Shown: positions 662 to 50,471 of the stretch, in pieces
Layout: the number at the start of each line of letters is the position of its first letter
Position numbering within the stretch: the stretch's first letter is position 1
Assembly: GCA_032622095.1 (NCBI GenBank)
Contig: CP136066.1
Span: forward strand, 157,007,152 to 157,071,151
Length of the DNA: 64,000 nucleotides
From: Siphonodentalium dalli
Taxonomy: Eukaryota; Mollusca; Scaphopoda; Gadilida; Siphonodentaliidae
Reading direction: 5' to 3'
Notes under the pieces: generated by a model
Seen by the model: only the letters and a program-made list of their open reading frames with translations
Databases searched by the model: none
What the model was told of the DNA's origin: nothing
Program-made: the position numbers and the translations under genes

Positions 662-878
662 TACAGTAATGCTCTAAATAATCGACTCCTTAACCACAGC
701 AGAATTATGGGTAATTTTTCAGGATTTTGCCGGAAATATGGCTTGTTGTCATTCATCGGAAAGCTCTCGGTGAGAGCTTTCCGATGAATGGCAACAAGCC
801 ATATTTTCGATTAAATCCTGAAAAGTTACCCATAATTCTGCTGTGGTTAAGGAGTCGATTATTTAGGGCATTACTGTA
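662..878. mobile_element. Palindromic pogo-like MITE, full length
   Basis: A 217-bp near-perfect palindrome bounded by TA. Termini CAGTAATGC, subterminal GACTCCTTAACCACAGC, centre gagctttccgatgaatg. The TA duplication and CAGT termini are typical of Tc1/mariner-pogo elements. It has no coding capacity, so a transposase supplied elsewhere is assumed. It ends 17 nt from the exon 21 donor. Confidence 0.9.
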
Positions 879-895
879 TTTGCAAACCTGCTTAC

Positions 896-1087
896 CTTGA
901 ACTTTTGCACCTCGAGGTAGAAGAATAGATCTTTGTCGATCAGTGGACATCCATCTTCCTCACCATGTTTGAGCAGATATTTATAGAAATAGAGCATTTG
1001 GATTTTGATGTGTCCCAAGGCCGACTGATTCAAGGCCTGCAGGAGTTCTACTTTGTCGTCCTTGCTTGGTGGTGCTCGTCCTGTAGG
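896..1087 (-). CDS. RGS22: RGS22-like exon 21: start of RGS-like module 4
   Basis: The acceptor gatatttctag gives phase 0 after exon 20; the donor TTCAAG|gtaagc is strong. It has 64 codons: PTGRAPPSKDDKVELLQALN, then SALGHIKIQMLYFYKYLLKH, GEEDGCPLIDKDLFFYLEVQ, KFK. The Y.YLLK...E.G.PL.....FYLE pattern recurs in C-terminal RGS22 modules as I recall them. A palindromic MITE ends 17 nt past the donor. Confidence 0.88.
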
Positions 1088-23014: not shown

Positions 23015-23107
23015 TACTTATATACGAATAGTCACTTTGTCATTTATAATTTTATGTATTCAGACAAATAAATATATTTAAGTTAAAACACGAGCCATCC
23101 AGCTTGC

Positions 23108-23254
23108 CTGTATATAAATGTAGCATGGCCGTCTTTCTTCTGCTTATTAACACCAAGTAAGTTGTACGTCTCTATATCCATAAACAGCATCAAAGCGTTG
23201 GAATTATCTTTATCTTCCTGGTTACCTACGTATTTCCTGAATCCATTCATTATC
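23108..23254 (-). CDS. RGS22: RGS22-like exon 16: start of RGS module 3, GC donor
   Basis: The acceptor ttttatag and the donor TACAG|gcaagc give 48 codons plus split codons. MNGFRKYVGNQEDKDNSNAL then MLFMDIETYNLLGV matches an RGS opening, with MD replacing the usual Trp-acidic pair. The donor is GC rather than GT, with otherwise strong consensus (CAG|GCAAG); GC-AG introns are a known minor class of normal splicing. Exon 17 resumes in phase. Confidence 0.86.
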
Positions 23255-37655: not shown

Positions 37656-37815
37656 TCTAAAAACGTCTTTAAATCCTCCTTCAGGAACCTGATCCAACTT
37701 TTTTCGAGTTTGTCGACGACATGAGATTTCCCGGCATCGAACACAGAGGCCTCGATGTAATCTTTAGCCAGCAATAACTTCTCATGTAACTTATCCCTCT
37801 CCTCCTTCTGCAGCC
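37656..37815 (-). CDS. RGS22: RGS22-like exon 11: C-terminal helices of RGS module 2
   Basis: The acceptor cttgcag and the donor TTAGA|gtgagt frame 52 codons (2 nt in, 2 nt out). The reading EERDKLHEKLLLAKDYIEAS, VFDAGKSHVVDKLEKSWIRF, LKEDLKTFL fits the later RGS helices: a V/IFD.A segment, then a terminal W..FL...L. The spacing after exon 10 is right for one complete module. Confidence 0.9.
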
Positions 37816-40152: not shown

Positions 40153-40310
40153 CTATATGGTACTGTTCATCCGACGACACATGTTTATTATATATTCCCC
40201 AGGCGTTGACCAATCGCAGCAACCGATCGGCAGATCTGTGCTCAGCTACTCCATATTCGGTAGCTTCTTGCCAGAAGGTGAGCATCGAGAGCAGTTCAAA
40301 CTTGCAATTA
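40153..40310 (-). CDS. RGS22: RGS22-like exon 10: core of RGS module 2
   Basis: The acceptor tatcttacag and the donor ATATAG|gtaagg give 52 codons with split codons. The reading KFELLSMLTFWQEATEYGVA followed by ADRLLRLVNAWGIYNKHV matches the L.FW.E.....Y core of an RGS fold, with helices and a V/SSDE turn after it. An obvious continuation of exon 9. Confidence 0.92.
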
Positions 40311-40347
40311 CTGTAAGATAATAAACCATACTGAGACCATATATAGC

Positions 40348-41261: not shown

Positions 41262-41468
41262 ATTTCTTATATGCATGCGAGTCTCCCATAGGGAGCCTCC
41301 CATATATAAGAGAATAAATTGGCTTACAAGGTTAAGGTAAATATTGTTAGGCCAATGTATTCTCTTATATATCTGAGGCTCCCTGTGGGAGACTCGCATA
41401 TATAAGAGAATGCACTGGAACAGGGTTTTCACAAAATGTCAGGAAGGTCCAGTAACAGAAGGGTTAAT
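41262..41468. mobile_element. piggyBac-like MITE, TCATGAC-ended family, left end lost
   Basis: Two cassette hairpins survive and the right end is weakly preserved (aacagaagggttaat). The left terminus is replaced by the palindrome at 41,131-41,260. Confidence 0.7.
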
Positions 41469-41532
41469 GTCATTAATGAAGGACCACCAGCTAGCTTGTT
41501 ACAGTAATGAAAGATTAAGTTAATATGACTTA

Positions 41533-41745
41533 GAGAAATGCCCTAAATAAACGACTCCTTAACCACAGCAGAATTATGGGTAACTTTTCATTATTTAGTC
41601 GGAAATATGGCTTGTTGCCATTCATCGGAAAGCTCTTTCCGAGAGCTTTCTGATGAATGGCAACAAGCCATATTTCCGACTAAATCCTTAAAAGTTACCC
41701 ATAATTATCCTGTGGTTAAGGAGTCGATTATTTAGGGCATTACTG
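41533..41745. mobile_element. Palindromic pogo-like MITE inserted into the exon 9 splice donor
   Basis: The element is bounded by TA at 41,531-41,532 and 41,746-41,747. On the minus strand the exon ends CTAGAGAG, then GTA and the element terminus CAGTAATGCCC. Beyond the element the host continues AGTCATATT. Joining the flanks at one TA gives CTAGAGAG|GTAAGT, a consensus donor. Confidence 0.9.
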
Positions 41746-41748
41746 TAC

Positions 41749-41826
41749 CTCTCTAGATACTTCATGAAGGGACCACCAGCTAGCTTCTCAGCACTAAGTG
41801 CCAAAATGAATCTCTCCTTGTTTGAT
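41749..41826 (-). CDS. RGS22: RGS22-like exon 9: start of RGS module 2, donor embedded in a MITE end
   Basis: This short exon (25 codons plus split codons) has the acceptor tttatttcag and reads SNKERFILALSAEKLAGGPF then MKYLE. The PF.KYLE run opens the second RGS module, continued by exon 10. The donor is GTACAG: its G is host sequence, TA is the insertion site of a palindromic MITE, and CAG is the element terminus. Phase matches both neighbours, so the exon is needed for an intact frame. Confidence 0.87.
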
Positions 41827-50237: not shown

Positions 50238-50471
50238 CTATTTCTCTGTATTTGACCACCTTGTCTTATTTTTGCTGATTTGACCCTATCGTCGAGTTTC
50301 CTGCCTCCCTTGCTGACGGTCTCCCAGTTAGCCACCTCGGAATAAGACAGTAAACTATCTGGGATTATTGGCATGGAATTAACAAGACATATTGATGGGA
50401 AGAAAGGCAGAGACGATTTCTGCTCATCCAGCTCGAAAACTGTCTTGTGGTTTGATCGCACATTCGCGATG
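50238..50471 (-). CDS. RGS22: RGS22-like exon 8: inter-RGS linker
   Basis: The acceptor ctttcattatgcag and the donor AAATAG|gtgagt frame 77 codons (1 nt in, 2 nt out). The residues include FELDEQKSSLPFFPSICLVN, then a basic tail (RKLDDRVKSAKIRQGG). No catalytic motif; it links RGS modules 1 and 2. The following intron (41,827-50,237) is the largest in the window. Confidence 0.88.

Follow-up and report, generated by a model that had tools for sequence, protein, structure and literature searches.

A palindromic MITE within a splice donor of a multi-RGS gene of Siphonodentalium dalli, and its probable reading by U1 around a bulged cytosine

In the 64,000-nt stretch of Siphonodentalium dalli DNA analysed here (the window), a palindromic MITE lies inside the donor site at which exon 9 of a conserved animal multi-RGS gene ends. 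We favor, with more confidence than doubt, the account that this MITE split an ancestral donor and that U1 pairing around a bulged C keeps the exon 9 boundary in place. According to this proposal, a non-autonomous TA-targeting DNA transposon entered the TA of an ancestral GAG/GTAAGT donor (the slash marks the exon end), as the anatomy of the site and the homologues show. The boundary would then be held at 41749 by GUA-[C]-AGUA, with U1 predicted to form nine pairs around bulged C+4, and we propose that it stayed there owing to CAGTA, the end of the element that comes directly after GTA. U1 probably binds the emerging donor before the second hairpin arm is transcribed, and exon 9 would still be spliced at the old junction, perhaps with lower efficiency. 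Coordinates of the features are collected in Table 1.

Table 1. Features around the exon 9 donor (window positions) and at a second split donor (locus L067, C6)
Feature	Position	Strand	Description
Exon 8, coding part seen	50238..50419	-	donor TAG/GTGAGT
Exon 9	41749..41826	-	78 nt; phase 2 at either end; start of second RGS module
Present donor GTACAGTA	41741..41748	-	predicted U1 pairing as GTA-[C]-AGTA, bulged C at 41745
TA target-site copy	41746..41747	-	doubles as donor +2/+3
213-bp palindromic MITE	41533..41745	-	termini CAGTAATGCCC (donor side) and GGGCATTTCTC (far side); 12/213 off consensus
Second TA target-site copy	41531..41532	-	host AGTCATATT comes next; its AGT was +4..+6 of the old donor
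Partial direct copy of exon 9	41473..41497	-	in intron 9, past the element; 17 exact nt, or ~26 nt if one gap is allowed
Exon 10	40153..40310	-	acceptor cttacag ends at 40311; donor TAG/GTAAGG
Exon 11	37657..37815	-	same RGS module as exons 9 and 10
GFM2-like exon plus element	L067:1373-1721 = C6:219379525-219379873		exon C6:219379525-219379653

The position of the exon 9 boundary is indicated by homology. A hand-joined query searched against proteins matched 16, among them those of Mya arenaria and Batillaria and one JGI protein, and these three then served to mark the exons by tblastn; the closest named relatives found in this search are molluscan. When exons 9–11 are joined at 41749, the product scores 27.5 bits against the RGS profile PF00615, above the gathering cut-off of 23.9, which places it within the RGS domain family. 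A hand-made join of the exons that used other junctions gave no PF00615 match. Across the join from 41749 to 40310 the translation reads ...GGPFMKYLE-S-NCKFELLSMLTFWQEATEY... and aligns without a gap to both the Mya arenaria protein (65/130 identities) and the JGI protein (68/132), which makes 41749 the ancestral exon 9/10 junction, probably still used today. The preliminary description had stated that the gene reads in frame across the insertion and that exon 9 opens the second RGS module, and both statements agree with this join. With the Mya arenaria protein as reference for alternative joins of exons 8–11, the canonical join scores 210 bits, compared with 199 bits for a donor 12 nt upstream of 41749, 168 bits for the product that skips exon 9, and 97 bits for the product of an element-internal donor. 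A genome search with exon 10 gave a single match. At the end of one exon of the gene there is an apparent GC donor, CAG/GCAAGC (window 23107-23108).

Read on the minus strand, the last letters of exon 9 are ...GTATCTAGAGAG, and the sequence continues as GTA, CAGTAATGCCC...GGGCATTTCTC, TA, and host AGTCATATT; that is, the donor side reads CTAGAGAG/GTA-CAGTAATGC and the far side TA-AGTCATATT. This is the arrangement given in the preliminary description, which had recognized a palindromic MITE, its TA duplication, and a hairpin-forming palindrome that begins at intron position +4. Counted with TA, each inverted arm spans 106 nt; the arms are 92% complementary and lie 5 nt apart, and the folded strand reaches −160.9 kcal/mol (z −19.7 versus shuffles). 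With three or fewer mismatches allowed, the terminus has 23 matches in the window, including both ends of the donor copy, where 0.14 are expected; the exact 20-mer TACAGTAATGCCCTAAATAA is found in 33,771 places in the 2.23-Gb genome. A consensus was derived from 43 copies, namely 39 fetched as the most similar to the donor copy and four from the window, the latter being a sample without selection by similarity, and over its 213 bp it is perfectly palindromic (106+1+106). Of the 44 other copies for which both ends were examined, 40 have TA on either side (one of the 44 is only 172 bp long, and L009 and L040 are duplicates with common flanks). Given these TA flanks and the palindromic, high-copy family, the element is therefore a TA-targeting MITE: it is short and non-coding and has terminal inverted repeats, a high copy number, and a target-site duplication of fixed length (TA). 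By its TA target and its CAGT-like ends, and by these two features only, it is linked to Tc1/mariner elements; its ends resemble those of Tc1.

Removal of the element and one TA leaves CTAGAGAG/GTAAGT, that is, GAG/GTAAGT. The same hexamer appears in 0 of 80 oriented empty sites of other copies, and on the donor strand of the window 8 of 782 GTA triplets belong to GTAAGT. There is therefore a strong case that a consensus donor once ended exon 9 and that the MITE entered its TA, as had been claimed from the sequence at the outset. The accompanying claim that GTA was kept while AGT at +4 to +6 was replaced by CAG is accurate, and we add that the element supplies AGT anew, as C-AGT. A further copy of the MITE is present in the same gene from intron position +20 (window 662-896), behind the intact donor AAG/GTAAGC of an exon that ends at 896.

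The donor copy is more divergent from the consensus than any of the 43 others (the four window copies differ by 3.8–5.2%), and 8 of its 12 differences are missing from every window copy compared. At 10 of the 12, the mirror position has the consensus base. It speaks against a great age that 11 of the differences recur in one or more of the 43 copies, but they do so piecemeal and without linkage, as expected if copies are selected for similarity. We consider the insertion old and assign it no date; dating by subfamily was attempted and gave none, the 12 differences being scattered over the most similar copies without linkage.

What remains of the donor can be judged by its predicted pairing with U1. 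The 5′ end of U1, ATACTTACCTG, was read at four of four U1 loci, out of 42 matches in the genome. These matches include a tandem array with a spacing of ~2.15 kb (C1:103842444-103879156) and a cluster at C6:94883137-94996301. In the transcript, the element end that follows GTA gives GUA-[C]-AGUA, in which AGT is re-supplied with one extra base. The duplex prediction leaves C+4 bulged and pairs A−2 to A+3 and A+5 to A+8, and this bulged register is the best U1 pairing predicted for the exon 9 donor. Its predicted strength is −8.5 kcal/mol, compared with −10.7 kcal/mol for the empty site; nine other donors of the gene span −7.0 to −12.5 kcal/mol, and three of them are weaker than that of exon 9. 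This range comes from donors that pair in the normal place, with 5 of 14 rows excluded for guessed boundaries or, in one case, a GC donor. Among the 3460 GTs of the donor strand, 48 reach −8.0 kcal/mol or better. In the standard register +5G is lost, and a vertebrate donor matrix that is blind to bulges scores the exon 9 donor at 0.1 bits versus 7.8 for the empty site. Seven exon ends were tried, and with each of them the bulge costs 2.2 kcal/mol. The rescue by CAGT is not specially tuned: when all 256 four-base ends are placed behind GAGGTA, CAGT comes 43rd, and among random six-base ends 12% do equally well in pairing with U1.

The pattern GGTA[element]TAAGT is found at 23 places in the genome, and one of them provides a second case. 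At C6:219379653-219379874 the same MITE, here 10/213 from the consensus, lies in the TA of a CTG/GTAAGT donor of a GFM2-like gene. The exon upstream encodes part of a GTPase domain of the elongation-factor type (PF00009, E 4.4e-13), is 129 nt long, a multiple of 3, and ends in the donor CCTG/GTA[213 bp]TAAGTCAAG; tacttctcag precedes the next exon, whose first base is L070:522, and the frame continues across the junction as NLIDTP-G-HVDFTIEV. The best solved match of the hand-joined exons is mitochondrial ribosome-releasing factor 2 (GFM2, mitochondrial EF-G2) at 317 bits, ahead of the best bacterial EF-G (265 bits) and mitochondrial EF-G1 (201 bits). The genome contains no second full match, and one 60% paralogue is located on C4. 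Its donor has a predicted U1 pairing of −6.9 kcal/mol now and −9.1 kcal/mol when empty, and opening costs 13.8 kcal/mol now (−2 to +8) and 1.3 kcal/mol at the empty site (−3 to +6). If this gene works, the split-donor class works. Since the sole full match would lose part of its GTPase domain without the exon, a split donor of the GTA-[MITE] class, whose structure is directly visible here, is very likely usable in S. dalli.

Among the 23 places, exon ends were demonstrated at the RGS and GFM2-like sites only. Nine peptides from seven other places had no Pfam match, and the remaining places were assessed by open frames and acceptors only. A possible third split donor is located near position 1501 of L055 (minus strand), where CAG/GTA[MITE]TAAGT is found together with an open stretch of 54 nt, which has no Pfam match, and an acceptor that is strong. 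AG precedes GTAAGT in 12 of the 23 places (L069 and L075 are apparent duplicates), compared with five places of the related pattern AGGTA[MITE]TAAGV, where reading of open frames and acceptors showed no exon. As a background for this contrast, and a local one only, AGGTAAGT accounts for 2 of 11 AGGTAAGN in 114 kb.

A further question is whether the hairpin hides the donor. With both arms present, a perfect palindrome is calculated to need 12.95 kcal/mol for opening of −2 to +8, and the exon 9 copy 6.0 kcal/mol; over −3 to +6, the exon 9 copy requires 5.7 kcal/mol and the empty site 5.87 kcal/mol. When only the left arm has been made, opening of −2 to +8 costs 4.3–4.6 kcal/mol. By pairing probabilities, G+1 and U+2 are mostly paired in six of six part-length windows (unpaired 0.00–0.19), and they are mostly paired in the empty allele too (0.08 and 0.02). 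The relief in the exon 9 copy is due to far-end changes at element positions 210 and 213. When the 44 other copies were placed in the exon 9 flanks (88 placements), four opened at 6.0 kcal/mol or less, and one of those four keeps the U1-pairing end; the base at position 210 is found in 11 of 43 copies. Selection of these far-end changes to free the donor is a suggestive reading that we keep as weak and post hoc. The GFM2-like copy retains a fully paired hairpin base, and this second case argues that hairpin relief is not needed.

For the partial copy of exon 9 that lies beyond the element in intron 9, 500 base shuffles of the intron never had more than 12 nt in common with exon 9, and the 17-mer common to exon and copy has just two occurrences in the genome. 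The copy is preceded by CATTACTGTA (41509-41500), an inverted element terminus that contains TACTGTA, the kind of footprint that Tc1-like excision leaves. It is possible that the copy marks a break repaired with copied filler. Another inverted-repeat family is represented at window 41264-41418 by a TATATAAGAGAAT motif with arms of 63 and 32 nt, and many similar stretches are found elsewhere in the window. A search of the window against Rfam at gathering scores found nothing.

The main rival to continued splicing at 41749 is skipping of exon 9. The weakened donor may have turned exon 9 into an alternative or mostly skipped cassette, with the gene surviving because the remaining in-frame protein, which lacks the start of the second RGS module, matters. 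The exon would permit this: with 78 nt and phase 2 at both ends, its skipping keeps the frame, as the preliminary description had pointed out, and the skip product is open. The GFM2-like exon is likewise a multiple of 3, the predicted protein of the gastropod Batillaria lacks the exon 9–10 stretch in the alignment, and bulge registers are linked to more alternative donor choice in a review (PMC9311317). Against skipping, exon 9 is as similar to its homologues as the neighbouring exons are, and the donor class seems to work in the GFM2-like gene, where exon loss would damage the only full match. We regard skipping as unlikely, although it deserves more weight than any of the other alternatives. 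That the gene is non-functional, or that its transcript is retained or ended at the donor and the open frame is a leftover, strikes us as improbable. The loss of +5G in the standard register would fit such an outcome, as would the read-through from exon 9 into the element, which is open for ~20 codons. Against it, the 14 exon segments of the gene contain 0 stops in 2193 nt, a count that is biased because the segments were hand-picked by similarity; the neutral chance of this is 0.068 at 3.5% change, 0.026 at 4.5%, and 0.009 at 5.6%, but 0.20 at 2%, a value that would apply if few of the 12 differences post-date the insertion and that would make the absence of stops weak evidence.

The fold itself suggests another arrangement, in which the hairpin base juxtaposes the old donor halves GUA and AGU and U1 pairs across the junction of a split site. 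The stability of the hairpin and the host AGT at its base are in keeping with this idea, but the bulged-C register requires no such bridge and the papers listed by the literature searches offered no precedent; we find it very improbable. Least credible of all is that an assembly artefact, or a polymorphic allele of recent origin, accounts for the insertion. One genome was examined, and 11 of the 12 differences recur among copies that were mostly chosen for similarity, yet the 8 differences absent from the window copies compared, the lack of any subfamily linkage seen, and a TA duplication cleaner than an assembly error would be expected to produce all speak against this.

If the exon 9 boundary is indeed kept by U1 pairing around a bulged C, a more general idea can be put forward tentatively, and we think it somewhat less likely to be right than wrong. 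TA-target transposons with CAGT(A) ends might carry a built-in donor repair, in that a GTAAGT donor that is hit becomes GTA-[C]-AGT(A), readable by U1 with a bulged C. The CAG footprint of excision would pair alike, with the same predicted −8.5 kcal/mol. Donors hit by such families might come to unusually little harm and remain split throughout the genome, which the RGS and GFM2-like cases would then suggest. The two genes are natural experiments that bear on the extent to which a 5′ splice site can be reduced and still serve the spliceosome of an animal. The simple rule by which TA plus CAGT gives GTA(C)AGT predicts which transposons can enter donors without killing the gene. The end sequence of a transposon, U1 pairing with a bulge, and a donor covered by a hairpin thus come together in one testable place.

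Several known systems share parts of this arrangement. Tc1/mariner-type MITEs have a TA duplication, a CAGT terminus, and inverted repeats, all of which are found here, with the family's exact termini present in tens of thousands; the S. dalli family differs in that its consensus is palindromic over the entire length. Among the papers listed by the literature searches, several of which had far larger result sets, none reports a TA element that splits a donor between +3 and +4. MITE-like elements are described from clam globin introns (PMC4732748). Introners are introns derived from DNA transposons (PMC9860276), and they too are non-autonomous elements whose ends and target duplications jointly form splice sites. 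They differ in giving rise to a new intron with both of its splice sites, whereas here the donor of a pre-existing intron was replaced from +4 on. The MITE appears not to have created an intron, because the exon 9/10 junction is gapless against the homologues (compared as proteins) and a host acceptor stands before 40310. In stwintrons, too, an inserted sequence splits a donor, and the insert is itself an intron that is spliced first (PMC12403724); the MITE runs CAGTAATG...GGGCATTTCTC, that is, CA...CTC, and is not a GT-AG intron. Closest in how the donor would be read are the human donors with bulged U1 registers (PMC9311317 and PMC12527174, and Roca et al. 2012 through these), in which U1 pairing likewise leaves one nucleotide of the donor strand bulged. 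What would set the exon 9 donor of S. dalli apart from these sites is the origin of its predicted bulge, which comes from the end of a transposon.
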